Below are positions 6,008 through 43,789 of a stretch of DNA of 60,860 nt, in pieces (position 1 is the stretch's first letter; every line of letters begins with the position of its first letter). A model generated the notes under the pieces. It was not told the DNA's origin and did no database searches. It saw only the letters and a program-made list of their open reading frames with translations. Origin of the DNA: a virus; IMG/VR virus record IMGVR_UViG_3300048030_000346, positions 1 to 60,860 of that record, one strand, 5' to 3'. A program made the position numbers and the translations under genes.

Positions 6008-6015
6008 CTTGTCTG

Positions 6016-6046: not shown

Positions 6047-6050
6047 GACT

Positions 6051-13194: not shown

Positions 13195-14883
13195 ATGCGT
13201 AAGAACAGAATCATTCTACTCAACGATATATTTGATAATGACATCTCTGGACAAACACAAGACTCTTTGCAAGATTTAGATGAAGACACGTTTAATAATT
13301 TGCATATTGAACAACAAGAAAAATCAAACAAAAAGTATGAAGTCAAAATGATTTCATCTAATAACAAATATACTTTTTGGAGTAGGTATATGGGTCCTTA
13401 TGCAGTGGCAAGTGCTGTACATCAAAATTGTCCTGACTGGGAAGTTGTAGTTATTGATTGGTTTACAAAAATTGAGCACTTTCACGATTACTTAGAAAAT
13501 TTTATAAATGAAGACACAGTTTATATTGGATTAAGCACAACATTTTTGTTGAATACATTTAATCCAAGAGCACAAGATTTTAACCTATGGTTTACAAGAC
13601 AACGACAAGTAGATGAATGGTTTAGTAAAATTAAGGATATAAATCCTGATATAGAATTTATACTAGGTGGCGCTATAACCGACTTATGGTATAAAATACA
13701 TTTTAAAACAAGACCAGAGGCAAAATTTCCGGTAGCTTTCCAAAAACACATTAACTATGTGTTTAATGGCTATGCAGAAGATACCATAGTAGAATTTTTA
13801 AATGGAAATCTTGATCCAAAAAAGGTACACGAAAAAAATGGTATCTTTTTTATCAACGAAACAAAAATGGCATCAACTGGTGCAAAAGTATTACAAAGCA
13901 ACTATCAACACTCAATGGCTATTAAGAATGGCGAATGGTTACCACTTGAGGTAAGCAAAGGTTGTAGGTTTGGTTGTAAGTTTTGTTTCTATGACATTAG
14001 AGGCACACTTATTAAGGACAAAGATTGTTTGCGTGAAGAACTTATGTACAACTATGAAAACTTTGGTGTCACAGGATATATGCTCACAGATGATACAGTT
14101 AACGACAGTCCAGCAAAAATAGATATGTTACACAGTGTCATAAAAAGTTTGCCGTTTAAAATGGAATGGATTAGTTATTGTAGGCCCGATATGTTTAGTA
14201 AGTATCCTGAAATGTGGCATAAAATGATTGATATGGGTTGCAAAGGTGTGTTCTTGGGTGTAGAAACACTTGATCATACAGCAGGTAAACTTGCAGGTAA
14301 AGGATTAGATCCAGAACGTATGAAAGAAATATTAGTTTGGATGCGTGAAGTTGCACAAGACGATGTTTTTATTCTTGCTAGTATGATTATTGGATTGCCT
14401 GGCGAAACAAAAGAAAGTTTGATAAAAACAGCAGAATGGTTCCAAGAGCAAACAGTGCTAGACAAAATACAATATGAATTATTCTTTGTAAGTGACGGTA
14501 ACGATAGTAAGTCTCCTGCATTTACAGGTAAGCCTGATAACCCATACGGAATACATTTAGAATATTATCCAAACTACTATTGGAAGCATAACAGTATGGA
14601 CCTACACGATGCACAAAAAATTGCAATCGAATGGGAAAAAATGTTAGTGGATCATCCTAAGACAGCATTTGAAAGACACTTTAGTTACAACACCAATTTC
14701 TGGGCGTATCCAAGGCTACGTAGTTTAGGATACAATCATTTAGAGTCAGTGAAAATATTAACAGCTAAAGTTGTACCACAGGATGTTTATCAAAAAAACA
14801 GACAATGGATTGATAATTATCACACTGAACTTAAATTGATAAATCACGTACAATCATTAAAACAGGAAGAAATGTTAGCGTGA
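13195..14883 (+). CDS. Radical SAM protein, B12-binding-domain type
   Basis: 562 residues. The 4Fe-4S cluster motif CRFGCKFC (C257, C261, C264) reductively cleaves SAM to a deoxyadenosyl radical. The N-terminal 200 residues have the alpha/beta layout of cobalamin-binding domains (VASAVHQNCPDWEVVVIDW, FILGGAITD), though no DxHxxG lower-ligand motif is evident, so B12 binding is doubtful. Conserved radical SAM segments GVFLGVETLD and IIGLPGET follow. Substrate unknown. The gene overlaps the SDR gene by 4 bases and is one of eight radical SAM genes in the window, the only one standing far from the others with a dehydrogenase partner. Confidence 0.9.
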   Translation: MRKNRIILLNDIFDNDISGQTQDSLQDLDEDTFNNLHIEQQEKSNKKYEVKMISSNNKYTFWSRYMGPYAVASAVHQNCPDWEVVVIDWFTKIEHFHDYLENFINEDTVYIGLSTTFLLNTFNPRAQDFNLWFTRQRQVDEWFSKIKDINPDIEFILGGAITDLWYKIHFKTRPEAKFPVAFQKHINYVFNGYAEDTIVEFLNGNLDPKKVHEKNGIFFINETKMASTGAKVLQSNYQHSMAIKNGEWLPLEVSKGCRFGCKFCFYDIRGTLIKDKDCLREELMYNYENFGVTGYMLTDDTVNDSPAKIDMLHSVIKSLPFKMEWISYCRPDMFSKYPEMWHKMIDMGCKGVFLGVETLDHTAGKLAGKGLDPERMKEILVWMREVAQDDVFILASMIIGLPGETKESLIKTAEWFQEQTVLDKIQYELFFVSDGNDSKSPAFTGKPDNPYGIHLEYYPNYYWKHNSMDLHDAQKIAIEWEKMLVDHPKTAFERHFSYNTNFWAYPRLRSLGYNHLESVKILTAKVVPQDVYQKNRQWIDNYHTELKLINHVQSLKQEEMLA

Positions 14884-19936: not shown

Positions 19937-21076
19937 ATGCGTCTCGAAGAAGACATTAAATTAGATTACAAAGACGTTCTTATACGTCCAAAACGCAGTA
20001 CATTGCATAGCCGGAAACAAGTGAAATTAAATCGTAAGTTTCAATTTCGGCATTATGATCACGACATTGCAGAACCATTGCCTGATGAATATCATTATAT
20101 GGGTATTCCTATTATGGCAAGCAATATGGATGGTGTCGGAACGTTTCGTATGGCTGATAAATTAGCAGAAGGCGAAATGTTTACTTGTCTTGTAAAAACT
20201 TTCAGTGCTGAAGAGTTGATAGAATATTTTAATTCTGATATTGGGCTTGAACGTACTGAAAATGTTGCAATGAGTATTGGCACAGGCGAAAGTGATTATA
20301 ACAAATTATTGAAAGTGAAAAAAGAATGTGACTACAGGCTTAAATATGTATGTATGGACATTGCCAATGGTTACAGCGATCACTTTGCACAACACGTTCG
20401 TAAAGTAAGAGACGATTTTCCAGACTTGGTAATCATTGCAGGTAATGTTGTTACACGAGAAATGACGGAGGAACTTATTCTTGCAGGAGCTGATATTGTT
20501 AAAGTGGGCATTGGTCCCGGGTCTGTTTGCACTACTAGGATACAAACTGGTGTGGGATATCCGCAACTATCTGCAGTCATCGAATGCGCTGATGCAGCAC
20601 ACGGACTTGGTGGTCACATTATTGCTGACGGTGGGTGTAATAGCTCTGGAGATGTCGCTAAAGCCTTTGCAGCCGGTGCAGATTTTGTTATGCTTGGTGG
20701 TATGCTTGCTGGGCACGATGAAGGCGGCGGCGAAGTAATTACTAGAAAGTATATTACAGATGAATTCCAGGATGATGGAAGGACTCGAAAGTTTAAAGAA
20801 AAACATTTTGTGCAATTCTACGGTATGAGTAGTGAAAGTGCAAATGACAAGCATTTTGGTGGACTAAAAAATTATCGTTCATCAGAAGGACGCACAGTGC
20901 TTGTGCCTTATAGAGGACCTGTAGCTAGAACAGTACAAGAGATCCTTGGAGGAGTGCGTAGTGCGTGTACCTATACAGGTGCATTAAAACTCAAGCAACT
21001 TAGTAAGTGTGCAACTTTTATTCGTTGCTCACAAACACACAATTCGGTGTATGAATCATCGACAATTGGTAAATAA
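19937..21076 (+). CDS. guaC: GMP reductase
   Basis: 379-residue TIM-barrel enzyme of the IMPDH/GMPR family. It resembles GMP reductase rather than IMP dehydrogenase: [15 protein letters not shown] at the N-terminus, [20 protein letters not shown] with the catalytic Cys198, [15 protein letters not shown] and [11 protein letters not shown], with no CBS insert. It converts GMP to IMP with NADPH. For the phage this can recycle guanine nucleotides into the adenine pool or shift (p)ppGpp precursors. Starts directly after the bS21 stop. A bulged GAAA-loop hairpin lies downstream. Confidence 0.93.
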
Positions 21077-21618: not shown

Positions 21619-21921
21619 ATGAATAAAACTGATGTAGTAATTGACGAAAAAATTGAAATTGATATTTCAGAACCTAAGGATTGCAAAGTCATTTTCCTTA
21701 ATGATGATAAAACACCAATGGATTTTGTTGTAAGTATTTTACAAGAAATATTCAAACACTCTTTTGAAACTGCTTCTGCTTTAACCATTCAAATTCACGA
21801 AGAAGGAAGCGGAGTTGCAGGTATATATAGTTACGAAATAGCAGAACAAAAAGCTACGGAAACTGTAAATTTAGCAAGGCAAAATGGGTTTCAGCTAAAT
21901 GTAAAAATTGAGGAAGAATGA
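21619..21921 (+). CDS. clpS: ClpS, N-degron adaptor of the Clp protease
   Basis: 100 residues. CKVIFLNDDKTPMDFVVSIL is the ClpS signature (the DD region that gates the N-degron pocket), then an amphipathic helix, IHEEGSGVAGIYSYEIAE and the closing helix. ClpS hands proteins with N-terminal Leu, Phe, Trp or Tyr to ClpAP, and blocks ClpA from tmRNA-tagged substrates. A phage copy next to phage ClpP (43837) and tmRNA would reset which proteins the host protease removes. Overlaps the heme oxygenase gene by 4 bases. Confidence 0.93.
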   Translation: MNKTDVVIDEKIEIDISEPKDCKVIFLNDDKTPMDFVVSILQEIFKHSFETASALTIQIHEEGSGVAGIYSYEIAEQKATETVNLARQNGFQLNVKIEEE

Positions 21922-22445
21922 GCAAACTTAAAGAACTTACTTGGGAGAATCATCAAAATGCTGAAAGAACAGCATTTGCCAGGAAACTTATGAATGGTAT
22001 TACTCCTGAACAATATCACACCTACTTGTACAATCAATTTATTATCTACGGTTCTCTTGAATCATTAGCTGACTTAGACGGCATTGAAGACATACGCAGA
22101 GCCAAACGCATTAGTATTGATTTAAAAGAATTAGAACACGAATATGGTTTTAAAAGAACAAAAGATAAACTAAAACCTAGTGCTGTAGATTATATTAATT
22201 ACCTTCCTACACTTGATAGTGATGAACTAATGGCCCACGTTTATGTTAGACACTTTGGAGATATGTATGGAGGTCAAATGATTAAAAAACGTATTCCATT
22301 TACAAAAGGTGTTATGTATGATTTTGATAATGTCGAAGACCTTAAAATAAAAGTTCGTACTGTGTTGGATGACGAAATGGCAGAGGAAGCAAATATTTGT
22401 TTTAAATATGCAACCAAATTGTTTGAGGAATTAAATAATGAGTGA
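21918..22445 (+). CDS. Heme oxygenase
   Basis: 175-residue all-helical heme oxygenase. His12 in WENHQNAE is the proximal heme ligand and FGDMYGGQMI is the distal-helix glycine motif. It opens heme to biliverdin IX-alpha, CO and iron with reduced ferredoxin as donor. Directly followed, with an 8-base overlap, by a bilin reductase gene, so the product is probably handed on. Phage heme oxygenases are known from cyanophages; in a heterotroph host, iron release or a non-photosynthetic bilin pigment may be the point. Confidence 0.93.
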   Translation: MSKLKELTWENHQNAERTAFARKLMNGITPEQYHTYLYNQFIIYGSLESLADLDGIEDIRRAKRISIDLKELEHEYGFKRTKDKLKPSAVDYINYLPTLDSDELMAHVYVRHFGDMYGGQMIKKRIPFTKGVMYDFDNVEDLKIKVRTVLDDEMAEEANICFKYATKLFEELNNE

Positions 22446-23124
22446 AGTTTGGGAAACCTTAATAGAAATACAAGACAGGTTAATTGATGCATTTGACGCT
22501 ACGGGTACAGAAATACAAGAGCCAGGAATGGATAGATTCAATCAGCCTGGTTGGTTAAACAGAGTATGGCAAAGTGACAGCTATCGTAGAGCACACATTG
22601 ATGTTGTGGATGTGCGTGAAACCAAAGGTTTGTGGATGATGCATTGTTGTGTTTTTCCAAGACTAGACAATAACGGTCCTGTTTTTGGACTAGATGTTAT
22701 TGCTGGTAAAAATAAAATTACAGGGTTCTTCCACGACTACAGTAGAACTATAGATGCCGATCATCCAATGATTGAAGCATTTGGTGACGAAGTAAGCAAA
22801 CTTGAATGGCGCAAAGAACGTGAACTACCTGAATGGGCTCAAGCAATCTTCTCACCGCATATGGTAGCAGCAGGCAATGTGAACAAACGTGAAGAACTTG
22901 ATCAACTGTTAGAGTTGAGTTTAGACAGTGTAGATGCTTATCTTACAGACATTGGTAATCATAATCATACAGCAGATACAGACGAAGTAAAAACAGCACA
23001 GAATCGTTATGCACATTATCAAAAACAAAATCCGCACACTCCTAAAACAATGACCAGTTTAGGACTCGACGAAGAGGATGTACGAGTATTCGTACAGGAA
23101 TGTTTATTCCCTGACATTGACTAA
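22438..23124 (+). CDS. pcyX: Ferredoxin-dependent bilin reductase, PcyX-like
   Basis: 228 residues. The pattern HIDVVDVRETKGLWMMHCCV, FPRLDNNGPVFGLDVIAGKN and a C-terminus with Y..YQKQNPHTPK and VFVQECLFPDID matches the HY2/PcyA/PebS family that reduces biliverdin. The catalytic Asp (D86, in FGLDVI) and His69 are present. The partnership with heme oxygenase outside a cyanobacterial setting corresponds to PcyX, a phage enzyme reported from uncultured oceanic viruses that makes phycoerythrobilin. The assignment to PcyX rather than PebS or PcyA rests on context and overall look; a tree would settle it. A late TAAATA box spans its stop codon. Confidence 0.85.
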   Translation: MSEVWETLIEIQDRLIDAFDATGTEIQEPGMDRFNQPGWLNRVWQSDSYRRAHIDVVDVRETKGLWMMHCCVFPRLDNNGPVFGLDVIAGKNKITGFFHDYSRTIDADHPMIEAFGDEVSKLEWRKERELPEWAQAIFSPHMVAAGNVNKREELDQLLELSLDSVDAYLTDIGNHNHTADTDEVKTAQNRYAHYQKQNPHTPKTMTSLGLDEEDVRVFVQECLFPDID

Positions 23125-24248: not shown

Positions 24249-24722
24249 ATGCAATATTATTTTAAAATTATTTTTTTCATATTAATGGTTACCCCCGGAG
24301 TAGCCAGCGGCGATTTAGTACACAATTTTAAATCTCCTACATTTACAGGACAAGGCTACAGTGCTCATATGTTGAGCCTTGAACAACTTACTTTTAATCG
24401 TAAAGAAGATATCAGAAAAGATGCGGAACGTGAAGCAGAACGCATTGAGCGTGAACTTGAAAACACGGTGCTTAATAAGTTTATCCGTAACTTAGAATCA
24501 CGTATATATGCTACACTTAGTAAACAGTTAGTTGACAATATGTTTGCAGCCTGCGGAGCAGATGATCAGCCTGCGTGTTCTAATTCAGGAACCACAGAAG
24601 TTGAAGGAGCAGAAATTGCTTGGAGCAAAGATGAAGTCACAGGAAGTATAACACTTATTATCGATGGTCCAGATGGCTACACGGAAATAGTGATACCAGG
24701 AATGGGGGAATTTAACTTTTGA
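24249..24722 (+). CDS. csgF: CsgF-like curli assembly protein
   Basis: 157 residues: signal peptide to about residue 21 (FILMVTPGVASG), then the CsgF hallmark, mature start DLVHNFKSPTFTG, which in E. coli inserts into the CsgG pore. The middle helix is charged (RKDAEREAERIERELE), longer than in E. coli CsgF. The end NFERxLxSRI-like segment appears as FIRNLESRIYATLSKQLVDNMF, and GSITLIIDGPDGYTEIVIP matches the conserved C-terminal strands. CsgF couples the CsgG channel to nucleation at the surface. Start chosen at 24249 because it begins the signal peptide; the frame is open farther upstream. Confidence 0.88.
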   Translation: MQYYFKIIFFILMVTPGVASGDLVHNFKSPTFTGQGYSAHMLSLEQLTFNRKEDIRKDAEREAERIERELENTVLNKFIRNLESRIYATLSKQLVDNMFAACGADDQPACSNSGTTEVEGAEIAWSKDEVTGSITLIIDGPDGYTEIVIPGMGEFNF

Positions 24723-25519
24723 AATTTATAGCAATATTAGCAATGTTATTTGTTGCAGGTTGTGCAACACAAGGAGAAGTTCCAACTATGCTGCAAAATG
24801 CTGCAAAAGTGCAGGATAATCCAATGGTAGAAGAATTAAATAAACTTCAGCCATTGGATGGTCCTGTAATGACAGTAGGTGTTTATGAGTTTGCAGATAA
24901 AACAGGGCAACGTAAACCCTCTGAAAGTATTTCAAACTTGAGTAGTGCAGTTACACAAGGTGCAGAAGTTTGGGTAATAGATGCACTATTGCAAGCAGGC
25001 AACGGTACTTGGTTTGAAGTTGTAGAACGAGGTGGAATGGATCACGTGATCAAAGAACGTCAGGTTATACGCAATACAAGGGAAAACTATGGTGAAAAAG
25101 AAGTTTCTCTATCACCTATGAAATTTGCAGGTATATTACTAGAAGGCGGTATTATAGGATATGACAGTAATATTTCTACAGGCGGCAATGGTGCTATGTA
25201 TATGGGAATCGGTACTGCGGTAGAATATAGAGTTGATACTGTGACAGTTGCAATGCGTCTTGTAAGCGTAAGCACAGGTCGTGTATTGGTAAGCGTAGCA
25301 GCAGAAAAATCAATTGCTAGTTACAGACAAGGTGCAAACGCATTCAAGTTTTTTGATTTAGGTACACAAGCATTAGAAATCGAAACTGGATATAGTGTAA
25401 ATGAAGCATCAAATTATGCCGTGCGTCAAGCCATCGAGGCCGCAGTAATTGAAATGATTTATCAAGGTGCTGCACAAAATCTATGGAAATTTAAACAAGA
25501 CAGTACTTCTTCATCTTAG
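24719..25519 (+). CDS. csgG: CsgG-like curli secretion channel lipoprotein
   Basis: 266 residues. Lipoprotein signal MKFIAILAMLFVAGCATQ with the lipobox cysteine C15; then the CsgG core: VGVYEFADKTGQRKP, ESISNLSSAVTQGAEVWVIDAL, ERGGMDHVIKERQVIR, LEGGIIGYDSNISTGGNGA, and LVSVSTGRVL. E. coli CsgG forms a nine-subunit outer-membrane pore for unfolded curlin subunits, and these segments follow it closely. Start codon is TTG, overlapping the csgF stop as TTGA. Its end overlaps the convergent Fis-like gene by 29 bases. With csgF and two curlin-like genes it makes a compact fibre-export system. Confidence 0.95.
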   Translation: MKFIAILAMLFVAGCATQGEVPTMLQNAAKVQDNPMVEELNKLQPLDGPVMTVGVYEFADKTGQRKPSESISNLSSAVTQGAEVWVIDALLQAGNGTWFEVVERGGMDHVIKERQVIRNTRENYGEKEVSLSPMKFAGILLEGGIIGYDSNISTGGNGAMYMGIGTAVEYRVDTVTVAMRLVSVSTGRVLVSVAAEKSIASYRQGANAFKFFDLGTQALEIETGYSVNEASNYAVRQAIEAAVIEMIYQGAAQNLWKFKQDSTSSS

Positions 25520-25760
25520 CCAATAAGGTTTCTCTTTTTATTCCTAACTTATCAGCAGTGTGTGTGCGATTGTGATTGCACTCTTTTAGAGCCGCTGCAA
25601 TCCTATCTATTATAAAATCGTCTACTTCTTGGTGCAAACATTTATCATCTTGTCTTTCTTCGGGCGGCCATATCTCGTCAAATACATCCCAAAAGGCCTG
25701 CTGTTCTTTATGATTTTTTTCTGCTTGTTTTAATGCCATCATAACTGTATTTAGTTTCAT
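25491..25760 (-). CDS. Fis-type helix-turn-helix regulator
   Basis: 89 residues. The C-terminal part, ECNHNRTHTADKLGIKRETL, is the Fis/NtrC-family HTH_8 (N.NRTxTAxxLGIxRxTL); the N-terminal half is acidic and helical, without an AAA+ domain, as in Fis itself. It is the only minus-strand gene within this long plus-strand block and lies between csgG and the first curlin gene, so it may control them. Its promoter is one arm of a perfect palindrome at 25806-25836. Ends with a 29-base convergent overlap with csgG. Confidence 0.82.
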   Translation of the reverse strand: MKLNTVMMALKQAEKNHKEQQAFWDVFDEIWPPEERQDDKCLHQEVDDFIIDRIAAALKECNHNRTHTADKLGIKRETLLAKMKKYCLV

Positions 25761-25805
25761 TATATACCCGCTTTACTGTAAAAATATTTACACTAAATAA
25801 CATTG

Positions 25806-25836
25806 TATTTATAATAATATCAACATATTATAAATA
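25806..25836. promoter_or_regulatory. Divergent late promoters forming an 11-bp perfect palindrome
   Basis: TATTTATAATA (25806-25816) and its exact complement TATTATAAATA (25826-25836) face each other across 9 bases. Each arm contains TATAAATA reading outward: minus strand toward the Fis-like gene, plus strand toward the curlin gene. The element can act as back-to-back late promoters and, by symmetry, as a binding site for a dimer. Confidence 0.7.
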
Positions 25837-25866
25837 TATTTGGCTAAAAGCCGGAGGTGGAAAAAT

Positions 25867-26604
25867 ATGAGGGCAATATTATATGGGTTCATCCTATCAT
25901 TGGTTCTCGTAAGTGCAGCAAATGCAAACGAGATTTACATTACACAAATAGGTGACACCCTTGATTTAGATATTACACAAGATGGGACTGACAACGAATT
26001 TGGTGATTCAACCACCGACGCAATGCTTGATGGCGATGATATGACTTTTAGTATTACTCAAACAGGTAATGCAAACATAATTGATGCAAAAATAAAAGGT
26101 AATACATATACTGGTACTTGGACTTTTACAGGCAACAACAATTTTGTTGATTTAGTCTGCGATAATACCTCAGGTGTAAACTGTGAAAACGTCACACTGA
26201 ATATTGCAACTACAGGAGATACCAACAAGTATTATTTAGAAATTGGTGAAACAGCAGATGCAGACGGAGCGCAAATTGATTTTACAGTAGAGGGCGACGG
26301 AAGCATATTGATCACAGAAGTTGACGGCACAAGTGCGGTAGTCAATGTTACAATAGACAATAATTCTACACTTTCGTCAGCTACAACCTCAGACTCATCA
26401 TCAACTTACACAACAGAACAAGGCGGTGTGTTAGTCGAAATAGATCAAGACGGCGATGGAGACAGCGCAGGACACAGTGTAACACTAGATATCACCGGCG
26501 GCGGCAGCAACTACAAAATTAAACAAAGTGGTGTAAAAGATAACACAGTAGATGCTACATTCTCAGGCGATGGACAAGACGTTGATATTACGCAGTCTGA
26601 TTAG
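25867..26604 (+). CDS. Curlin-repeat-like secreted protein 1
   Basis: 245 residues: signal peptide (MRAILYGFILSLVLVSAANA) followed by Asn/Gln/Gly/Asp-rich beta-helix-like repeats, for example TQIGDTLDLDITQDGTDNEF and SITQTGNANIIDAKIKGN, close to the curlin pattern (QxGxxNxxxxxQxGxxN). It is degenerate relative to CsgA, with longer spacers, and has a single Cys pair in the middle (VCDNTSGVNC). Likely CsgG substrate forming or nucleating an extracellular fibre. Start at 25867 has GGAGGTGG upstream and removes a basic pre-sequence. Confidence 0.8.
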   Translation: MRAILYGFILSLVLVSAANANEIYITQIGDTLDLDITQDGTDNEFGDSTTDAMLDGDDMTFSITQTGNANIIDAKIKGNTYTGTWTFTGNNNFVDLVCDNTSGVNCENVTLNIATTGDTNKYYLEIGETADADGAQIDFTVEGDGSILITEVDGTSAVVNVTIDNNSTLSSATTSDSSSTYTTEQGGVLVEIDQDGDGDSAGHSVTLDITGGGSNYKIKQSGVKDNTVDATFSGDGQDVDITQSD

Positions 26605-27688
26605 TGCATTATTACTAACAACCCCAGTGTATGCAAATATTGGCAAAATAGCAGAACATAAAGGTTCTAGCACAATTCAGCGTGAAGCAGAAAAATACAC
26701 TGGCGAAGTAGGACTTGGTCTTGAAATGAACGATAGGATCGTTACAGGCAAAGGTTCAATGCGTATGGACTTTATAGATGACACTCGTGTTGATGTAACA
26801 GAACATTCACGTATGACCATAGACGAATTTATATATGATCCCAACACAAAAACTGGTGCGCTGAGTATGAAAGCCACACTAGGAGCAGTTAGATATGCAT
26901 CAGGACAAATAGCAAAGAATAGCAGACAAAGAGTGAATATAAGAACACCAAGTGCTACAATAAACGTGCGAGGCACAGACTTTATGATGATTATTGACGA
27001 AGTAGGTGGATCAATGATAACACTGTTACCAAGTTGTGACGCTAGTGGTTCTTGTGTTATAGGAGAAATATCAGTAGAATCAGATGTTGGTCAAATTATA
27101 ATGAATCAAGCTTATCAAACCACTGTGGTGCCACATAGAGGTGCAACTCCAGGCCCAAGTGTAATATTAGATTTACCTGAGAATATGCTTACAGCAATGT
27201 TGCTTGTACGTAAAGTTTCACCTTACACAGAAGAAATAACCAAAACCTATCCAAATACAAATTTATTAGACATTGACTTTTTAAATTTTGACGAGTTAGA
27301 TAGAGATCCTTTAGTTGAAAATATAAAAAGTATTTGGGTTACAGATTTGGATAATATGACTTACTTGAATCCTGTGTGGATTGACGAAATGGAGAGACAG
27401 TTGGCAGAAATACTAGCACAGTGGATTGACGAACTTTCTGTACAAAACCAAGAATTATTAGATGTAAAGCTTTTAGGACTAGACCCTGAAACTAATATTT
27501 TTTACGATGAAAATTATCCTAATTTTATAGTGCGTAGGCAAGAAGGCGATCAACACATATTCCAACTTACATTGGATCAAGGTTATGGATATAATATAGA
27601 TATGGAACAGGAGGGCTTCTATGCATACGGCTACCGTGTTGGCGTGGGCGGCGGGAATAGTATTAATATTTCCCAACGTGGCTTTTAG
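26570..27688 (+). CDS. FecR-domain secreted protein
   Basis: 372 residues from the ATG at 26570 (a TTG at 26582 would give a tidier signal peptide, ILRSLISALLLTTPVYA). The FecR domain covers about residues 30-190: IGKIAEHKGSSTIQR, LEMNDRIVTGKGSMRMDF, RMTIDEFIYD, and RTPSATINVRGTDF are its standard strands. The C-terminal 180 residues are acidic and end in an Asn/Gly stretch (VGVGGGNSINISQRGF) resembling a curlin repeat, suggesting it joins the fibre. FecR proteins are envelope signalling or anchoring modules, often found near CHASE2 cyclases. It overlaps the curlin genes on both sides. Confidence 0.85.
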   Translation: MDKTLILRSLISALLLTTPVYANIGKIAEHKGSSTIQREAEKYTGEVGLGLEMNDRIVTGKGSMRMDFIDDTRVDVTEHSRMTIDEFIYDPNTKTGALSMKATLGAVRYASGQIAKNSRQRVNIRTPSATINVRGTDFMMIIDEVGGSMITLLPSCDASGSCVIGEISVESDVGQIIMNQAYQTTVVPHRGATPGPSVILDLPENMLTAMLLVRKVSPYTEEITKTYPNTNLLDIDFLNFDELDRDPLVENIKSIWVTDLDNMTYLNPVWIDEMERQLAEILAQWIDELSVQNQELLDVKLLGLDPETNIFYDENYPNFIVRRQEGDQHIFQLTLDQGYGYNIDMEQEGFYAYGYRVGVGGGNSINISQRGF

Positions 27689-28301
27689 TAACGAAATCTA
27701 TATAAACCAAGCAGGCGACAACCTTGAATTGGAAGTGCAACAGCGTAGCGAGGACAACTATGTTAGTTTAAACAGCAATGGTGGTTCTAACAATATTACA
27801 ATTCGTCAAGGTATGCACGTAGATGGCACTATTGACATAGACGAAGAAGGTGGACACGAAGCATATTGGACTATAACTGGAGATGGAAACACAGTGGGAA
27901 GTGCGCAAACAGACACAAACAGAAGTGGTGGAGGCGCAGCACATCACCTTGCAAATATAGTAAATGGTGATAACAATGAAGTTAACCATACGCAAATGGG
28001 AAAACAAGGACACGATGGCTTTGTAGAAATACAAGGCGACGGTAATACTGTAGATTTATATCAAAGAGGCAATGGTGGGCAAAAATGGGCAGATGTTGCA
28101 CTCACAGGAGACGGACACTCAGTTGATATTATGCAAAGAGGAACTCAATATGCAGAAGCAGAAGTAGACCTAACAAATTCAGGCGGTGCATACAACTTTG
28201 AACTTACTCAGAATGTTTCAACTGCATCTAGCCATTATAGCGTCACAGGATATTGTACTAACAGTAGTGGTTGTAGTTTGTCTGTTAATAGGAACAACTA
28301 A
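27621..28301 (+). CDS. Curlin-repeat-like secreted protein 2
   Basis: 226 residues, signal peptide to about residue 23 (IVLIFPNVAFS), then curlin-like repeats with clearer periodicity than the first copy: GDNLELEVQQRSEDNYVSL, GDGNTVDLYQRGNGG, GDGHSVDIMQRGTQY. The mature start NEIYINQAGDNLELEV parallels NEIYITQIGDTLDLDI of the first curlin, so the two are paralogues, perhaps a major and a nucleating subunit. Ends with a Cys pair (GYCTNSSGCSL). CAGGAGGG is the SD; the start lies 68 bases inside the FecR gene. Confidence 0.83.
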   Translation: MHTATVLAWAAGIVLIFPNVAFSNEIYINQAGDNLELEVQQRSEDNYVSLNSNGGSNNITIRQGMHVDGTIDIDEEGGHEAYWTITGDGNTVGSAQTDTNRSGGGAAHHLANIVNGDNNEVNHTQMGKQGHDGFVEIQGDGNTVDLYQRGNGGQKWADVALTGDGHSVDIMQRGTQYAEAEVDLTNSGGAYNFELTQNVSTASSHYSVTGYCTNSSGCSLSVNRNN

Positions 28302-28648
28302 TGAATAGTATAATTGAAGCATTCACATTAAGTTTAGGTTTAAGTTTACATCTTGGATTTGACGATCACTACAATAGTGTACATCCCCATATTAGGTTTG
28401 AACACGAAAATTTTATCACAGGCGCATATTATAACAGTTTAGAAAATTTAAGTGTATATGCAGGACACAGACAAGAAATAAACAACTTTGGTTTTGAAGC
28501 TGCACTTGTAACAGGCTACAACAATGGATCACTTACTCCGTATGTCAGAGGCACATATGACGTAGGTAAAATGAGAATGTTCTTAGCACCAGGCATAGAA
28601 AGTAAAGATATCGGCGTAGTTTTTGGATTGGAGATTATGCTTAAATAA
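28301..28648 (+). CDS. Small outer-membrane-barrel-like protein
   Basis: 115 residues, alternating polar and aromatic strands: HPHIRFEHENFITGAYYNSL and ENLSVYAGHRQEI, then TPYVRGTYDVGKMRMFLAPG. The pattern fits a small family of phage and proteobacterial envelope proteins with the GAYxNSxxxxSVYAG signature. The N-terminus is only weakly signal-like. Starts on the last base of the curlin stop codon, so it belongs to the fibre operon. Confidence 0.7.
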   Translation: MNSIIEAFTLSLGLSLHLGFDDHYNSVHPHIRFEHENFITGAYYNSLENLSVYAGHRQEINNFGFEAALVTGYNNGSLTPYVRGTYDVGKMRMFLAPGIESKDIGVVFGLEIMLK

Positions 28649-28710
28649 CAATCAAAGAATATGGACCGCGGCGTGAGGGCGCAACCGGCATCATAACAAG
28701 AGGGTAAAAA

Positions 28711-30618
28711 ATGAAAAGAATAATGATTGCCAGTGTAATGGCAGCACTACTTGGTACAACAGCATTAGCAGATACAAGTAGCATTAGTACAACAGCAACA
28801 GGTATGGGTGTACTAGAAAACAGTTATGTAAAAGCCGGAGTGAATGGCACAGCAGGTACTTTTGGATCAGGCGGAAGCACTCGTCCAGGACTACAGTTTG
28901 ACAGCACAGGTTCAGGCACATTTCCAGCAGATAGCGCACAAGGCGACTACCTAACACCAGGTTCACCGTTTGATGGCTTTGCTATTAAGATAGATGGTAC
29001 TAACAGCAAAAATAATAACCAGGGCGGAAGTACTTGGGTAGATGCAGATGGTTTAACAAACGGTGATAATTCACTTACTTGGACTGGTACAAATTCTGCT
29101 CACAGTGGATGGGAAATAGAAAACACATATACATTAGGTGATACATCAGAACACATTGAGATTGGCACACAGATTACAGCAGGTAGTGATGCTACTGCAC
29201 TTAGCTTTGGACGCTTTATTGATCCAGATGCTATGCCAGAAGCAGGCGATACTAGTGCTACAGACAACGTGCTAGGTTATGGTGTTATTCCAGATAGTAA
29301 CGTAGCATTTGCAGAAGCAACAGTATCACGCTATGCCCTAGGACTGTACTCTACAGACTCTAACGTTGATGCAGGTATTACAGGCTGGTCAACAGAGGCA
29401 GATGCTTATACAGAAAATGCTTTTGACTCAGAGTCAAACACAAACACAGGCGACAACACTATTGGACTAAGTTGGAACTGGGCCGATGTAAGCACAGGCG
29501 ATATACTTACAGCAAGTTACGCATACATATTTGGACCAAGTGCGTTTGATGCTGCCGATGCTGCTATTACAGCAGGCGCAGGTGGCGGTGGTGACATCAG
29601 TAGTTGGGGTACATTAGAAGATGTTGGTAGTGCTACAGACGCAGCAGCCGGAGCAGCAGAACCAGTGATTACAACTGAAACTGTTGTAGACACTAGTATG
29701 CCAGTGCTAACACAGTCACAAACTACACACAATAGCACAACAGCAGCAGGCGTGCAAACTATAGCAAGAGAAACTACTACAATAGTTACAACACCTATGG
29801 TTACTAATACATACACTGATGGCACACTTACTTCAAGCGCAGCAGCAGATTCAGTAGCAGTATCAACTGTAACTGACCCAGGCAGCTTTACAGGACGTAT
29901 GGACACTGGTAAAAAGATTGGACAAGCTGTAGACTTACACAGTTTGGGTTTTGCTGATTATGTAGCTGGTAGCCGTATTACATCAGATTTAGGGCACGGA
30001 TGTAGTGCTGAAAGTCGTGTGTTAGGTATCGGTGGATCGACCACTACAGACGATTTAATCACCATTGAAGGTGGTATCAACAGAATAACTACAAAAGCTG
30101 ACGCTTGTAGTACAGGTGATATGACCACTCTACATATGGGCGTAGGAGCAAGCAAAGCATTAGATGAATTCACAGTACGTGGTACAATCAATCGTGCTAG
30201 TCAAGATATTACATATGAAAGACACATTGGTACCTTTACTAACCAAGGCGAATATGCTATTAGTGACACTTGGGTAAATGTAGAAGTTGAACCAAACACA
30301 GGACAAGTTCGTCCAGTGCTAGGTATTGTAGCAGGCAAGCGTTCAACAGATGCTTATACAGAAACAGGAAGTGTACAAAGTGCTATAGCTCACGAAGCAA
30401 TTGATGAATCGTATCGTTATGCTACACTAGGTGCTAATTTTGATCTCGACTTTGGTACAGCACATATTAGTAGAACCACCGAAGGTACTACAAATATTGG
30501 TATTGGCATTGACAAGCAAGTTACAGAAAATGTAAAGTTTGTAGGCGACTTTCAAAGAAGTATCAGTGATGACGCTAGTAGCAATATGTTAAGTGTTGGT
30601 CTTAAAATCCAGTTTTGA
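28711..30618 (+). CDS. Autotransporter-like surface protein
   Basis: 635 residues: signal peptide (MIASVMAALLGTTALA), a Thr/Ser/Gly/Asp-rich passenger of about 370 residues, a low-complexity Ala/Thr linker (near 285-375), and a C-terminal part of about 240 residues with barrel-like strands ending LSVGLKIQF, the Phe-terminal outer-membrane signal. This is the layout of a type V secreted adhesin, though the barrel is short for that class. It follows the curlin genes, with its own SD (AGAGGG), and may be a surface adhesin or receptor mask. Confidence 0.72.
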   Translation: MKRIMIASVMAALLGTTALADTSSISTTATGMGVLENSYVKAGVNGTAGTFGSGGSTRPGLQFDSTGSGTFPADSAQGDYLTPGSPFDGFAIKIDGTNSKNNNQGGSTWVDADGLTNGDNSLTWTGTNSAHSGWEIENTYTLGDTSEHIEIGTQITAGSDATALSFGRFIDPDAMPEAGDTSATDNVLGYGVIPDSNVAFAEATVSRYALGLYSTDSNVDAGITGWSTEADAYTENAFDSESNTNTGDNTIGLSWNWADVSTGDILTASYAYIFGPSAFDAADAAITAGAGGGGDISSWGTLEDVGSATDAAAGAAEPVITTETVVDTSMPVLTQSQTTHNSTTAAGVQTIARETTTIVTTPMVTNTYTDGTLTSSAAADSVAVSTVTDPGSFTGRMDTGKKIGQAVDLHSLGFADYVAGSRITSDLGHGCSAESRVLGIGGSTTTDDLITIEGGINRITTKADACSTGDMTTLHMGVGASKALDEFTVRGTINRASQDITYERHIGTFTNQGEYAISDTWVNVEVEPNTGQVRPVLGIVAGKRSTDAYTETGSVQSAIAHEAIDESYRYATLGANFDLDFGTAHISRTTEGTTNIGIGIDKQVTENVKFVGDFQRSISDDASSNMLSVGLKIQF

Positions 30619-31708: not shown

Positions 31709-31866
31709 TATGGTTAGCACTAACAAGCACTCAGGAAATGGAACTTTATCACTTAGCTAATTATGCTGACAAAGAAGATTGTGTTACAGCATTAAGTAAA
31801 GCAGCAGTGCTTGTGACAGATAGAAATCAAACTGTAGATTGTGTTTGGATAGATTTGAATAAATGA
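31696..31866 (+). CDS. Small secreted two-cysteine protein
   Basis: 56 residues: short hydrophobic start (MWALIWLALTSTQ), then a soluble part with two Cys (KEDCVTAL, VDCVWIDL) that could form a disulfide in the periplasm. It overlaps the cyclase start as ATGA, so it is co-translated with it and could be a small periplasmic partner of the CHASE2 sensor domain. Layout resembles the protein at 11261. Confidence 0.6.
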   Translation: MWALIWLALTSTQEMELYHLANYADKEDCVTALSKAAVLVTDRNQTVDCVWIDLNK

Positions 31867-33908
31867 AAAAACTAATATTTTCCCCAATATGGAGCATTAT
31901 AGTTTTGGGCATTCTTGCGTGGGTAATGCAAAGTAATCCACCATTTTTAGAAAGTCTTAAACTACGATACTTTGACACACTTATTGTAAATCAACAACCT
32001 GTTGAAAACAACATTTACACAGTGAACATCGATGAACCAAGTTTAGAGGCATACGGACAATGGCCGTGGCCGAGAGGTGATTATGGTAGCCTTATAGAGG
32101 ATTTATATGCCAGAGGCGCTGGACTAGTGGTGTTCAATGTGTTGATGTCGGAAACAGACAGATCAGGTGAAGATGCTACATTAGCCTTAACTATGCAGCA
32201 ATTGCCTGTTATCGTTACAATGTTGGGTGCAGAGGAGAATAAGAATGAAGCGATCAATCCTGGTGCTACTATTGTTAACAGCGATTATATTGGTACCATT
32301 CCTAGTGTTCCTGGTATTATTGCTAATGTACCTGATGTGGAATTCAACGCAGTAGGCAGTGGAATAACCAACAGTTGGGCAGAAGTAGACGGCGTAACAA
32401 GACGAATACCTTTAGTGGTTGAAAGCGGCGGCACATTGTATCCAAATGTTACAATGGAAGTGCTACGTGTTCTAGCAGGTGATCCTTCGTTCCAAATCAA
32501 ACTATCACCTATGGGTGTAGACAAACTACGCATACCGCAGTTTGGTATAATACAAACATCACCTACAGGCGAAGTGTGGATAGACTGGAGCCAACGCAGC
32601 AAAAGCGTGAGCGCAGTAGACTTACCAGATGACTTTGCTGGCGGTATAGTGTTTGTAGGACCAACAGCAGCAGGGCTTACACAGCCACTAGCAACAGCAG
32701 CAGGCAGCGTATTTCCACACGAAGTACAAGCAGCAATGCTAGGAACAGTGTTTAATCAATCAAATATTAGCAGACATCCAGACGCAGAACAGTGGGCAGA
32801 GTTAGCCGCCTTTATAGCAGTAGGTATAGTACTAATTTTAATCGCACGATGGACATATGTAGGTATAGCCTTTTTTGTGCTTGCAGTTGGCGGCAGCATT
32901 TATGGTAGCAACTATATTTTTGCACAGTATGCCTTGCTCGTAGACGGTGCTTTACCTGCTGCATTTTTAATTCTTGTAGGATTAATACGTTATGTATTAA
33001 AGTTTGTTGACGAGTTTTTACAAAAGAACGCTATCAAAAAACAGTTTGCTGGATATGCATCTCCTACAGTTGTGCGTATGTTACAAGAAAATCCTGCTTT
33101 AATCAAAGAAGGAATGAAAAAAGAAGTTAGTATAGTGTTCAGTGATTTGCGTGGATTTACACCACTAGGTGAATCTTTTGGTGATGATGTTAAAGGTCTT
33201 ACTAAAATTATGAATGGCTATATGGACAGTATTACACAACCTGTTTTAGATATGGATGGAATGATTATCAAGTACATAGGCGATGCAAGTATGCACATAC
33301 ACAATGCGCCTATAGATGATCCTAACCACGCTCGTTCAGCAGTACAGTGTGGCTTAGATATGCTTAAAGCAGTGGAAAAATTTAATGAAAAAGTTATTAT
33401 ACCTGATGGTCGTCCTGCTGTTGGTATGGGTGCTGGTATCAACACAGGGTTGGGTTACCTTGGTGAAATGGGAAGTACTAAACGTCATTCATATGATGTC
33501 CTTGGAGACGCTGTCAGCACCGCAGCAAGAGTAGAAAGCAAGTGTAAAGAGTACGGATGTCTACTACTTGTTGGAGAATCTACATACGAGCAAACAAAAG
33601 ACGATTTCTTCTATCTCAAAGTAGATGACTTGCAAGTCAAAGGCAAAAGTGTAGGACTTAGTATATATACAGTACTCGATGGCGGTCCACCTGCTTGGTC
33701 TGTTCCCCAACGTAGACACGCCGATATGCATACTGCATATAAAGCACAGGACTGGGATGAAGCTATACGTTTATGTAAAACAATATACACTAATTTTGAC
33801 CATAGAATGGAAAAATATTATGATATGTGGATTGAACGATGCGAGTATATGAAAACACAAGACTTGCCTTCAGATTGGAATGGCGTTTTTGTGGCCACAA
33901 GTAAATAA
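31863..33908 (+). CDS. CHASE2-domain class III adenylate cyclase
   Basis: 681 residues. N-terminal membrane helix, periplasmic CHASE2 sensor (about 35-305, with VNIDEPSLEAYGQWPWPRGD and the FVGPTAAGL end), three further helices (about 315-390), then a class III cyclase domain. SIVFSDLRGFT (Asp428) and YIGDASM (Asp474) bind the two metals; Lys470 and Asp545 are the adenine-selecting pair, predicting cAMP. In GDAVSTAARVES the transition-state Arg556 is present but the Asn four residues before it is Ser552. So it is an adenylate cyclase by motif, possibly of reduced activity. It follows the FecR/curli locus, a pairing also seen in bacteria. Confidence 0.93.
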   Translation: MKKLIFSPIWSIIVLGILAWVMQSNPPFLESLKLRYFDTLIVNQQPVENNIYTVNIDEPSLEAYGQWPWPRGDYGSLIEDLYARGAGLVVFNVLMSETDRSGEDATLALTMQQLPVIVTMLGAEENKNEAINPGATIVNSDYIGTIPSVPGIIANVPDVEFNAVGSGITNSWAEVDGVTRRIPLVVESGGTLYPNVTMEVLRVLAGDPSFQIKLSPMGVDKLRIPQFGIIQTSPTGEVWIDWSQRSKSVSAVDLPDDFAGGIVFVGPTAAGLTQPLATAAGSVFPHEVQAAMLGTVFNQSNISRHPDAEQWAELAAFIAVGIVLILIARWTYVGIAFFVLAVGGSIYGSNYIFAQYALLVDGALPAAFLILVGLIRYVLKFVDEFLQKNAIKKQFAGYASPTVVRMLQENPALIKEGMKKEVSIVFSDLRGFTPLGESFGDDVKGLTKIMNGYMDSITQPVLDMDGMIIKYIGDASMHIHNAPIDDPNHARSAVQCGLDMLKAVEKFNEKVIIPDGRPAVGMGAGINTGLGYLGEMGSTKRHSYDVLGDAVSTAARVESKCKEYGCLLLVGESTYEQTKDDFFYLKVDDLQVKGKSVGLSIYTVLDGGPPAWSVPQRRHADMHTAYKAQDWDEAIRLCKTIYTNFDHRMEKYYDMWIERCEYMKTQDLPSDWNGVFVATSK

Positions 33909-38570: not shown

Positions 38571-39766
38571 AGTACCCTGAAACTGAACTTAGAAATTTTT
38601 TAGTTGAAAAATTGTCACTGAACAAAGATCGTGTTACAAGGCACAACGGTGAAACACCGGTGCATTTACGTTTTAAAAGTAATTGCGGACTCAATACATT
38701 TGAGCAGTTACAAGAAAGTCTTGCCAATGTCGGACTTACATACAACACTGTACCTTACAAATATTACAGCAGAAGTCCAGACTACGGAGACCAAGGATTG
38801 GTTGTAAACTTCAAAGGTGAAAAAGTTGGTGTACAATTCAATGTACCAAAAGAAGGCAATATGTCTCGTAAACAATTTACACCTGATGCACTAGGATTGA
38901 ATGGTAAAACATTTGATAACAAGCAAGAGTTTGCAACAGCAGTAAGAGCTGGTATTGCAGACAGTGAATTTAGCGATTTCTTACTTAGTTTGTTGTACAA
39001 TGTAGAAACAGAATGGCCAATTGAAGGGTTAGAAGCTATACGTGAAGCAGATGTAAACAGAATTACAAGCGATTACGGTGAAGTCCTTTGTGCATATTCT
39101 TTTGTATTGAAAGGACACACTGTATATTTTCCAAAAGGTAGCAATCATAAAATTGCAGACTTTTATGTAGATGGACAAGGTGTAAGTGCAAAAGGTAGAG
39201 GCACTGGTGGCAAAGTTAATTTAAGTGCATTCGCAGAATTTATTGATACATACACTACAACAGGCAAATTTTTATATAGTGTAGCAACACACAATAGAAA
39301 TGATTTTGTAAAATATGCCGCTGAACTTTGTCCTGAAGTTAAAGCAATTACTGATTGGGTAGGTGGCACTGATAGAGATGCATTATCCAAATTTGTAGCT
39401 AAAACATCATATAAAGAGTTTTATACTTATATCCAAAATACACCAGAACATAATGGCTTAGGTATGCCTGACGCAGGTGGACGTCCTGAAGCATTATGGA
39501 ACGAAGGAAGTTTACACCCTATTGATTTTACGATCAATACATTGGTAAGCCGCTTGTGGGGTGAAAATGCAGTCAAAGAAATAAGTATTATTGCTACACA
39601 GTTTCTTAATGAACCTATGTTTGTTGTACTTGACATTGAAAATAATCAATGTATAATTAAAGAAACTAACTTTAGCGATGTTGCTAATTGGAAAACAGTT
39701 TACTGGAGCCGTGCTACAAGTGCTTGGCATAATTGGATGGGCGTAGAGCCATTGAAAGGTCTATAA
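38567..39766 (+). CDS. Phage protein of unknown function, possible nuclease fold
   Basis: 399 residues. Start at 38567 overlaps the previous stop (ATGA). The mid part KIADFYVDGQGVSAKGRGTG has an Asp and a downstream Ser-x-Lys arrangement like a degenerate PD-(D/E)xK site, resembling DLEIDGIGKVELKA in the protein at 23146. The C-terminal part has several Trp (WKTVYWSRATSAWHNW). It directly precedes a DNA methyltransferase gene (1-base overlap), so a restriction-type or DNA-processing partner is conceivable, but unproven. Confidence 0.7.
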   Translation: MKYPETELRNFLVEKLSLNKDRVTRHNGETPVHLRFKSNCGLNTFEQLQESLANVGLTYNTVPYKYYSRSPDYGDQGLVVNFKGEKVGVQFNVPKEGNMSRKQFTPDALGLNGKTFDNKQEFATAVRAGIADSEFSDFLLSLLYNVETEWPIEGLEAIREADVNRITSDYGEVLCAYSFVLKGHTVYFPKGSNHKIADFYVDGQGVSAKGRGTGGKVNLSAFAEFIDTYTTTGKFLYSVATHNRNDFVKYAAELCPEVKAITDWVGGTDRDALSKFVAKTSYKEFYTYIQNTPEHNGLGMPDAGGRPEALWNEGSLHPIDFTINTLVSRLWGENAVKEISIIATQFLNEPMFVVLDIENNQCIIKETNFSDVANWKTVYWSRATSAWHNWMGVEPLKGL

Positions 39767-42271: not shown

Positions 42272-42543
42272 CAGAAAAATTATCAAAAACAGAAGCAATT
42301 GGAAAGATTATTGAACTTGCAAAAGATATTGATGTAAAAGATTCAATTGATTATAGTTTTTTAAATATGAGTGAAGACGCTGCCTATGATATGGTAGCAA
42401 ACAATGTACTTACTCAGATGTATGAAACACCAGAACATTATAGAGAAACTATTATGATGGCAAGTATGACCAAAATACTCGTTGAAAATTTGGTATTGAA
42501 ATCAAGGCTACAAAATATTGAAAAATCAACCAAACAAGGATAA
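42268..42543 (+). CDS. Hypothetical helical protein
   Basis: 91 residues, helical, with SKTEAIGKIIELAKDIDVKD at the start. Similar short helical proteins are widespread in T4-like marine phages. Overlaps the following radical SAM gene by 26 bases. Function unknown. Confidence 0.7.
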   Translation: MTEKLSKTEAIGKIIELAKDIDVKDSIDYSFLNMSEDAAYDMVANNVLTQMYETPEHYRETIMMASMTKILVENLVLKSRLQNIEKSTKQG

Positions 42544-43789
42544 TACGTTCTGTTATTATCCTTTCCACGAAATTACACTTAAAATGTGGGAAGGAGAAAA
42601 ACTTGCAGCTACTTCACCTTGTTGTATGATGTTTAATACATACAATGAAGGATTGCAAATTGAAAATATGGATTTAAAAACACCAGAAGAATTATTTAAT
42701 TCTAAAGAGATGCAGCAGCTTAGAAAAGATGCATTGAAGGGTGTAAGAAATCCTTTATGTGACATCTGCTGGAAACTTGAAGATAACGGGCAAACAAGTT
42801 TTAGAATGTATAGTTTACCTCAAGGCAGAGATTCAATGCCGAAAAAGGAACTAAAAAATCCCCAATTAGCTACTATTGATATTACTTTAAGCAATGTGTG
42901 CAATCTTCGTTGTAGAATGTGCGATGTGTCAAATAGTAATAGGTTAAACATAGATTTTGATATATTAGAAGCACAAGGCACTAGAAATGAATTTGCCAAT
43001 ATCACCGGTGCTATGGCTCACAAATATCCCCGCAAAGAAGCAGCCAAATCTAAACAATTTGAATGGTTGTATGAAAATACACACAAGATAAAAACTTTAA
43101 AAGCAAGCGGCGGTGAACCATTTTATGACAAACATATAATACGGTTATTAGAGCAATATATTAAAACAGGAGCTGCTCAAGATACAACATTACACTTTCA
43201 TACAAATGCAACAATGATTGATGACAGAGTTATTGATATTATAAAACATTTTAAGAAAAATTTTAACACGTTTAGTATCGACGGCACAGATAAAGTTTAT
43301 GAATATATCAGACACGAAGCTGACTGGAATATTTTGAACAAAAATGTTAAAAATTATGCAGCTTTAGACAATGTAGAATTAATTGACTTAAATATGGTTG
43401 TGACAGCACACAACTTACATAATGTTCCTGACTATGTAAATTGGGCTAAAAAATTGCAAAAGAAAATTAACATTGTTTACAGTGAAGTATATCCACAACA
43501 CAGAGGAATACATATTTCAAGTTTACCAAATAAAATGTTGAAAGATGTACATAAAAAAATTAGTAATATAGATGAACCAGAAGACAGAGACCAGTATTTG
43601 GGATTAGACGTTCTAAAAGAATTTGTTGAAAAAGCAATGGATGTTCCAGAAAATATAAAAAAAGGTAAACAGAAAAAATTATATAGAGAAACTGTTATTT
43701 TGGATGCTGCACGTAATCAAAGTTATAAAGATTATTTGTACCCTCAAATGGTTAATTTATTAGATAAATTAAAAAAACTTTATGATTGA
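42518..43789 (+). CDS. Twitch-domain radical SAM protein
   Basis: 423 residues. An N-terminal Cys-rich region (FCYYPFHEITLKM, SPCCMMFN, CDICWKLE) precedes the radical SAM core with cluster motif CNLRCRMC (C128, C132, C135) and SGGEPFYDKH as the SAM-binding GGE motif. The extra Cys set marks the SPASM/twitch group, which often modify peptides or proteins. Start is a TTG inside the previous gene, the only start that retains the whole Cys region. The substrate is unknown. It lies apart from the larger cluster at 53029-60860 but has the same domain order. Confidence 0.88.
   Translation: MKNQPNKDNTFCYYPFHEITLKMWEGEKLAATSPCCMMFNTYNEGLQIENMDLKTPEELFNSKEMQQLRKDALKGVRNPLCDICWKLEDNGQTSFRMYSLPQGRDSMPKKELKNPQLATIDITLSNVCNLRCRMCDVSNSNRLNIDFDILEAQGTRNEFANITGAMAHKYPRKEAAKSKQFEWLYENTHKIKTLKASGGEPFYDKHIIRLLEQYIKTGAAQDTTLHFHTNATMIDDRVIDIIKHFKKNFNTFSIDGTDKVYEYIRHEADWNILNKNVKNYAALDNVELIDLNMVVTAHNLHNVPDYVNWAKKLQKKINIVYSEVYPQHRGIHISSLPNKMLKDVHKKISNIDEPEDRDQYLGLDVLKEFVEKAMDVPENIKKGKQKKLYRETVILDAARNQSYKDYLYPQMVNLLDKLKKLYD

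Follow-up and report, generated by a model that had tools for sequence, protein, structure and literature searches.

A curli-type fibre operon on a phage genome, with an exported FecR protein and a CHASE2-cyclase as its probable phage additions

We analysed virus record IMGVR_UViG_3300048030_000346 over its full 60,860 bases (hereafter the window), focusing on a curli-type fibre locus. A single run of genes (24249-28301; Table 1) encodes CsgF and CsgG, then two proteins with curlin repeats (curlin 1 and curlin 2) and, between these two, a protein that has a FecR domain and ends like a curlin. Downstream on the plus strand follow a PagP-like protein, an exported protein of 635 amino acids (aa), three small genes and a class III adenylate cyclase with a CHASE2 domain. 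The best explanation of the locus, to which we give an even chance on the sequence evidence, is an alphaproteobacterial-type phage curli operon joined by a sensor pair and a regulator. It would export fibres from infected cells, while FecR would sit at the pore and be sensed by the cyclase. The initial annotation of this DNA, made by eye without database searches, had already recognised CsgF, a CsgG with a lipobox, the two curlin-repeat proteins and FecR as one run, and had proposed profile searches as a check; the lipobox and Pfam matches to CsgG, CsgF and the curlin repeats bear this out, with CsgF and both curlins over the cut-off. While the core run stands, the locus extends beyond the limits drawn there, since the cyclase and a Fis-like regulator with its palindrome, which had been left out, belong to it.

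Table 1. Features of the curli-type locus, with window positions and the evidence for each
Feature	Position	Strand	Evidence
CsgF-like exported protein	24249..24722	+	Pfam CsgF, E 4.9e-9, over cut-off; signal peptide by eye; mature part near GDLVHNFKSPTF
CsgG outer-membrane export lipoprotein	24719..25519	+	lipobox VAGC; TTG start; Pfam CsgG 2.1e-48; E. coli CsgG structures 5.1e-42
Fis-like helix-turn-helix protein, 89 aa, antisense, divergent from curlin 1	25491..25760	-	Pfam HTH_8 2e-10
Palindrome TGTAAAAATATTTACA (TGTAA-N6-TTACA), probable operator of Fis-like protein	25777..25792		conservation; tracks Fis-like gene
TATAAATA box facing Fis-like gene, T4-late-like, weak	25806..25813	-	core conserved
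TATAAATA box facing curlin 1, T4-late-like, weak	25829..25836	+	TAAATA invariant in 9 rows
Curlin 1, exported beta-solenoid, curlin repeats at both ends	25867..26604	+	Pfam Curlin_rpt 5e-5, over cut-off; AlphaFold2 model
FecR-domain protein, exported, curlin-like C-terminal strands	26570..27688	+	PF04773 1.8e-7; model; tail tests
Curlin 2, exported, curlin repeats and two-cysteine end	27621..28301	+	Pfam Curlin_rpt 4.3e-7, over cut-off, 4 stretches
PagP-like protein, 115 aa, TAATG overlap with curlin 2, loosely associated	28301..28648	+	PHROG 3600 5.7e-12
635-aa exported protein, possibly autotransporter-like, optional	28711..30618	+	signal peptide by eye
CHASE2-class III adenylate cyclase, inner-membrane sensor	31863..33908	+	Pfam CHASE2 3.2e-36, Guanylate_cyc 6.9e-19

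The reading frames of curlin 1 and FecR overlap by 35 bases and those of FecR and curlin 2 by 68, which points to a single transcript. As relatives we used the best 80 loci of scans with at least 600 matches each, together with 20 further loci and the pelagiphages HTVC008M and Melnitz; identical proteins were removed, such that the totals of 97, 88, 67 and 52 given below are of distinct proteins, and as the best-scoring loci were kept, the counts describe this phage's neighbourhood, with distant phages under-represented. CsgF lies upstream in 66/66 of the distinct phage CsgG loci (the CsgG scans gave 67 distinct phage CsgG proteins), FecR lies downstream in all 41 that have at least 3.5 kb of flank, and the CHASE2-cyclase is found in all 29 that have at least 7.8 kb. 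Starting from FecR instead, all 52 loci that extend at least 4.8 kb downstream have the cyclase, one of them encoding it on the opposite strand. Between CsgG and FecR, in the curlin 1 position, 97/97 distinct loci hold a frame of at least 200 aa, and these frames align well, while the place of curlin 2 is filled (frame of at least 150 aa) in 46 of those 52 loci. The initial annotation had named relatives with csgGF but no curlin genes as a finding that would speak against it; the relatives instead keep the curlins with csgGF. Wherever the synonymous substitution rate (dS) was computable, the nonsynonymous rate (dN) was below it, which indicates purifying selection, although the estimate is rough (up to seven relatives, with dS near saturation). 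The ratio of the nonsynonymous to the synonymous proportion of differences (pN/pS) was 0.14-0.36 for curlin 1, 0.21-0.28 for CsgG and 0.39-0.62 for curlin 2; curlin 1 is thus constrained about like CsgG, and curlin 2 less.

The same core is present in cells. In a class-wide sample of 240 Alphaproteobacteria, 3 had a CsgF over the cut-off, as did 21 of 150 from one order, and 22 cellular loci show the phage's order of csgF, csgG and curlins, with curlin frames seen in 21 of them (two of these loci, L285 and L286, have short flanks, and G481, at a contig end, is not among the 22). FecR was found in 0/22 of these loci and CHASE2 or a cyclase in 0/22, whereas the window has both. Three cellular curlins (of L266, L275 and L278) end YTINQTGC...GCGxVSVTQ, close to many phage second curlins, which end for example in YSLTGICTNTAGCAITVSQN (L008). 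In line with the initial annotation, a search of the window for CsgE gave no match (no search was made for CsgC or CsgD). However, none was found in 23/23 alphaproteobacterial genomes bearing csgF either, so its absence from the phage says little, and the weight placed on it is not justified. Judged by these genomes, CsgE is not a defining feature of the alphaproteobacterial form of curli; the phage probably inherited its lack of CsgE, and FecR and the cyclase are probably phage extras. In the SAR11 family of the single-cell genome L202, CsgG occurred in 2 of 147 genomes, both with the whole phage-type module, from which we judged them phage-like, their flanks being viewed by eye only.

As a kind, this module is already published (papers are cited here by PubMed Central, PMC, number). 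The pair csgF and csgG was described in pelagimyophages in 2020, in a paper that proposes 'sibling capture' (PMC7029224), and the order csgF-csgG-curlin-FecR-curlin-adenylate cyclase is in print for marine phages (PMC9599517; also PMC7029224, PMC9004378). PMC9599517 adds that neither FecR nor the cyclase belongs to the curli operons of bacteria, reports phage curli modules at all 65 GOV2.0 stations, calls FecR a ferric citrate regulator and notes a histidine kinase ahead of podophage modules; a search of its text gave none of the terms CHASE2, PA14, signal peptide, palindrome, operator and helix-turn-helix. Hosts of phage curli modules have been reported to be without curli genes. Our additions are the phage and cellular counts for FecR and the cyclase, the FecR-CHASE2 pairing, the score of the FecR tail and the palindrome linked to the Fis-like gene. 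Set beside the pelagiphage type VIII secretion module (HTVC008M, Melnitz and HTVC023P-type), the window is alike in gene order and in having no CsgE, and its CsgG is 47-48% identical to those of HTVC008M and Melnitz; it differs by the Fis-like gene and palindrome between csgG and curlin 1, and by the PagP-like and 635-aa proteins before the cyclase. With the curli system of E. coli (csgBAC-csgDEFG) it has CsgG, CsgF and curlin repeats in common, but it is without CsgE, its pore-loop residues are changed, and its mature curlins, read by eye, begin at the first repeat. CsgF was aligned with 7 phage relatives, and a PDB profile search with it found no CsgF chain. Giant Brevundimonas phages have a distant CsgG-family gene of about 25% identity (L287, Brevundimonas phage Kabachok, 5893-6783); the Kabachok annotation shows no CsgF, curlin or FecR beside it, and the gene is possibly related to the hosts' holdfast anchor HfaB.

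The FecR-domain protein and its end carry much of our interpretation. By eye, the domain comes straight after a signal peptide, so that a cytoplasmic anti-sigma part would not fit, and a scan for hydrophobic 19-mers (19-residue mean >1.6) gave no internal one. Iron-signalling FecR anti-sigma factors share the periplasmic FecR fold with it, but neither the by-eye reading nor the hydrophobicity scan showed their cytoplasmic anti-sigma part or membrane helix in this protein. All signal peptides here were read by eye; the same 19-residue test flags CsgF, CsgG, both curlins and the 635-aa protein, and flags neither FecR nor the small PagP-like barrel, so that alone it does not separate these two. 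PDB sequence searches with FecR and with the 635-aa protein gave nothing useful. An AlphaFold2 model of FecR (predicted local distance difference test, pLDDT, 73.9) has a beta domain at 25-190, a poor linker, a helix at 267-297 and a C-terminal beta region at 303-369. In this predicted model the N-terminal part resembles the PupR signalling domain (6ovk; Z 14.1 over 119 residues, 2.5 A), and residues 21-115 share the fold of a cell-surface anchoring domain (5ix9; Z 10.2 over 73/76 residues, 2.3 A), which we take to be that of the adhesin MpAFP. PupR acts on its receptor from the periplasmic side of an outer-membrane pore. Adhesin retention modules, too, work from the periplasm, keeping their adhesins in outer-membrane pores (PMC13090378). 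As a difference, a type 1 exporter and control by the LapG protease belong to that system.

The C-terminus of FecR, which the initial annotation had likened to a curlin repeat, was examined in two ways. The motif [NS]x[IV]x[ILV]xQ occurs at the C-terminus in 87 of 88 distinct viral-type FecRs, compared with 1/606 control open reading frames (ORFs) and 2/77 bacterial FecRs, both of the latter being SAR11 proteins. We also built a scoring matrix solely from 46 cellular curlin ends, taking the best Q alike in all groups and using a cut-off of 4. Phage FecRs gave a median of 7.8 (54/87 at 4 or above, 87 of the 88 being scored), compared with -11.7 for bacterial FecRs (3/33 at 4 or above, of 77 in all) and -14.7 for controls (4/314, of 606); in the window, FecR scored 17.5 and curlin 1 scored 12.2. 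A variant that always used the last Q lowered the phage FecR median to -0.2, with controls at -15.7. We conclude that, at the level of sequence, the curlin-like C-terminus of FecR is real and general.

The cyclase is the second member of the putative sensor pair. Its metal-binding aspartates and purine-site lysine, at what we take to be the catalytic positions, lie in invariant columns of the phage alignment, which suggests cyclic AMP (cAMP) as its product. Outside phages, 16 of 57 alphaproteobacterial CHASE2 genes have a FecR gene no more than 5 kb away, where about 0.43 would be expected (27 CHASE2-bearing genomes of 58 sampled, leaving out two CHASE2 places below the curated cut-off); G003, which seeded the sample and was chosen for its FecR, contributes 1 of the 16 pairs. 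A biofilm operon of Burkholderia (BiofilmReg; PMC5192318) pairs a FecR protein with a CHASE2 histidine kinase; it is like the window in encoding an exported FecR-domain protein beside a CHASE2 membrane sensor, but combines a LysM-FecR with a histidine kinase where the window has a curlin-tailed FecR and a cyclase. We infer that CHASE2 has FecR as its partner in the periplasm. In the SAR11 single-cell genomes L202, L216, L225-L228 and L245, a small FecR lies about 1.3 kb from a CHASE2 protein with no cyclase match; in the SAR11 genome L214 the sole CHASE2 gene is not beside the FecR locus.

The palindrome lies in the promoter of the Fis-like gene and is invariant in all but one base across 9 aligned rows. 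Of 92 distinct loci, 13 have the gene in the gap that separates csgG from curlin 1, and 18 have it upstream of csgF in divergent orientation (31/92 in total). The palindrome is exact in 13/13 loci of the first kind; where the gene lies upstream of csgF it is exact in 11/19 and within one mismatch in 17/19 (19 under a looser flank rule), giving 30/32 loci with at most one mismatch. By comparison, the 64 loci without the gene have no exact palindrome upstream of csgF and none after csgG, and one-mismatch forms in 1 and 2 loci, respectively, against a background of 0.014 exact sites per 400 bases. Since palindrome and Fis-like gene move together, the palindrome most likely serves as the gene's operator. 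It also looks like a Crp/Fnr-type site and was considered as a site for the cAMP receptor. Yet the cyclase is general, whereas the palindrome is absent or rare where the Fis-like gene is missing; an operator for the Fis-like protein is therefore preferred. The window holds 2 exact sites (0.33 expected), the second at 39052-39067, far from the curli genes.

From the genes, their order, conservation and selection, together with the FecR tail, the FecR-CHASE2 pairing and the palindrome, we infer how pore, fibre, docking, sensing, regulation and timing might fit together. The phage would carry a copy of a curli (type VIII secretion) operon of alphaproteobacterial type with a sensor pair added, the regulator being an addition in this clade. 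During infection CsgG and CsgF would form an outer-membrane pore, through which curlin 1 and curlin 2 could leave the cell to stack as surface fibres. FecR would be exported to the periplasm, where its folded N-terminal domain may dock under the pore and the curlin-like strand at its C-terminus could anchor, cap or nucleate the fibre. The cyclase would then read FecR through its CHASE2 ectodomain and convert the state of export into cAMP, and the Fis-like protein, acting on TGTAA-N6-TTACA, would set expression of the curlin half of the operon. This reading would recast FecR from an iron regulator to a curlin-ended pore partner of the CHASE2 cyclase, and together with the palindrome that travels with a phage regulator gene it makes the question of the module's purpose testable. 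A bolder form of this, which we offer tentatively, is a self-reporting exporter, in which FecR plugs the CsgG pore with its tail outside to tether or nucleate the fibre (the work of CsgE and CsgB), the cyclase signals the state of the plug by cAMP and the Fis-like switch times the curlins. The genes for such a device occur together in none of the 22 cellular curli loci examined; if true, plugging and reporting would be a new way of gating and monitoring amyloid export.

For the curlins themselves, an AlphaFold2 model of curlin 1 is all-beta (pLDDT 82.5); a Foldseek search with it gave a best E of 0.2, which limits the claim about its fold to 'beta-solenoid'. Counts of curlin motifs by regular expression were often not above those of shuffled sequences for curlin 1, and we rely on Pfam, conservation and the model instead. 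Of the 46 frames in the curlin 2 place, 40 match Curlin_rpt at E 0.01, while one (L134) is instead related to the 635-aa protein. Second curlins differ at the N-terminus: that of HTVC008M has a PA14 domain over the cut-off, PA14 is matched at E 0.01 in 3/46 frames, and those of L062, L095 and L172 carry another N-terminal domain with no Pfam match. We had considered a barrel, fused onto curlin 2, as its anchor in the outer membrane, and rejected this because long second curlins show extra repeats (Melnitz) or PA14 (HTVC008M), and the barrel is separate or absent in relatives.

Several results weigh against the proposed operon of pore, fibre, sensor and regulator. The pore loop of CsgG is present, but Y51, N55 and F56 of E. 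coli CsgG, which we take to be its constriction residues, align with S, N and L, such that the asparagine is kept, the phenylalanine has become leucine and the tyrosine is lost. Among 68 curlin 1 proteins only 46 reach E 0.01 with Curlin_rpt, there is no curlin 2 frame beside FecR in 6 of 52 loci, and the window's own curlin 2, with no Q among its last 16 residues, is not scorable by the end matrix. The FecR model is of moderate quality, with its linker below a pLDDT of 50 and no structural match for its C-terminal region. Single FecR tails score weakly against a curlin hidden Markov model (HMM; mean best 0.5 bits, shuffled -1.9), and in a quick curlin HMM search 0/229 FecR frames passed E 0.01; as the FecR sequences are also interrelated, their likeness to curlin ends is supported but descent is not proven. 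No Fis-like gene turned up in 61 of the 92 loci with enough upstream sequence, so that it is not core. Lastly, Melnitz-infected cultures showed no clumping (PMC9004378). The reading of the initial annotation, with its amyloid-like coat, is partly supported: the relatives keep pore, coupling factor and substrates together, which favours a fibre over a bare pore.

What the fibres would be for is a guess: they may make infected cells, or their remains, sticky, as PA14 on some second curlins suggests. A figure legend in a paper on an adhesin sugar-binding domain lists PA14 among the adhesion domains of RTX adhesins (PMC6650083), and by our reading this is the same domain as that on the phage curlins. 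Alternatively, the fibres could mask the host surface or its receptors and exclude other phages with no aggregation of cells, which we regard as a serious minority possibility. Protection from competing viruses has been proposed in PMC9599517, and masking agrees with Melnitz cultures not clumping and with curlin 2 diverging faster, as seen in its pN/pS, but the PA14 domain on the HTVC008M curlin 2 suits sticking better than shielding. On sequence, adhesion or aggregation and receptor masking would fit alike.

It is also conceivable, if rather unlikely, that FecR and the CHASE2-cyclase act on their own on host cAMP signalling and simply ride along with the curli genes, given that FecR-CHASE2 pairs without curli genes exist in cells. 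Yet neither gene is missing from any phage CsgG locus with enough flank, and FecR sits between the two curlins with overlapping frames and a curlin-like end. We consider it improbable that CsgG and CsgF form a bare pore reused for uptake or, as a pinholin would be, for the timing of lysis, with the curlins as remnants. A lysis role was proposed for Melnitz in 2022 from CsgGF modelling and a riboswitch (PMC9004378), and the usual gate, CsgE, is absent, but this is equally true of the cellular csgF-bearing genomes counted above. A bare pore has no need of CsgF or of curlins, whereas a curlin 1 frame is present throughout and constrained about like CsgG, and most frames in the curlin 2 place match Curlin_rpt; the conservation of the curlins thus favours a fibre, and the added lysis pore of the initial annotation, already a published proposal, leaves them unexplained. 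Finally, an iron-responsive module under a ferric-citrate type regulator, as annotated in PMC9599517, is very improbable despite the PF04773 match and PupR-like fold, since FecR has a signal peptide (by eye) leading straight into the domain and shows no hydrophobic 19-mer further in, while its pairing with CHASE2 and its curlin-like end also speak against it; FecR is probably no iron regulator here.

Of the remaining features, the two T4-late-like boxes were set aside as promoters: TATAAATA occurs 6 times in the window compared with 9.3 expected and lies upstream of curlin 1 in only 9/97 loci, conservation being the one point in its favour. The small barrel of the initial annotation is supported as a PagP-like protein by its PHROG match, but no signal peptide was seen in it by eye, which makes an outer-membrane place doubtful. 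The 635-aa protein, there called autotransporter-like, does appear to be exported, but neither Pfam nor PHROG assigns it to a family at E 1, and in NCBIfam it has only a chance-level match (0.088, far below the cut-off). With relatives in only 9/52 loci for the 635-aa protein and, downstream, in 14/52 for the PagP-like protein, both are optional. In L134 (5609-7081) a relative of the 635-aa protein directly follows FecR, in the place of curlin 2.

The identification of the window as a phage is based on a head maturation protease at 43837 and on an nrdA that matches cyanophages; a search of the DNA at 50000-57900 against phages gave no match. A permuted two-piece transfer-messenger RNA (tmRNA) of alphaproteobacterial type lies at 6012-6336, with the tag ANDNRAPAMAIAA. 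We considered it for the question of a Pelagibacter or OM43 host, as 242/289 alphaproteobacterial genomes match it, but the listed matches span only about 30-47 bases, and the host call was dropped. Just upstream of the curli locus, at 21918-23124, a heme oxygenase gene (Pfam 9.1e-15) adjoins one for a ferredoxin-dependent bilin reductase (3.4e-17); such pairs are known in marine phages. The phage also encodes a ClpS adaptor protein (21619-21921; 2.8e-26), a protein of the IMP dehydrogenase/GMP reductase family (19937-21076; 4.6e-71) and four radical SAM proteins (13195-14883, 42518-43789, 54230-55438 and 55438-57594), one of which has a B12-binding domain.

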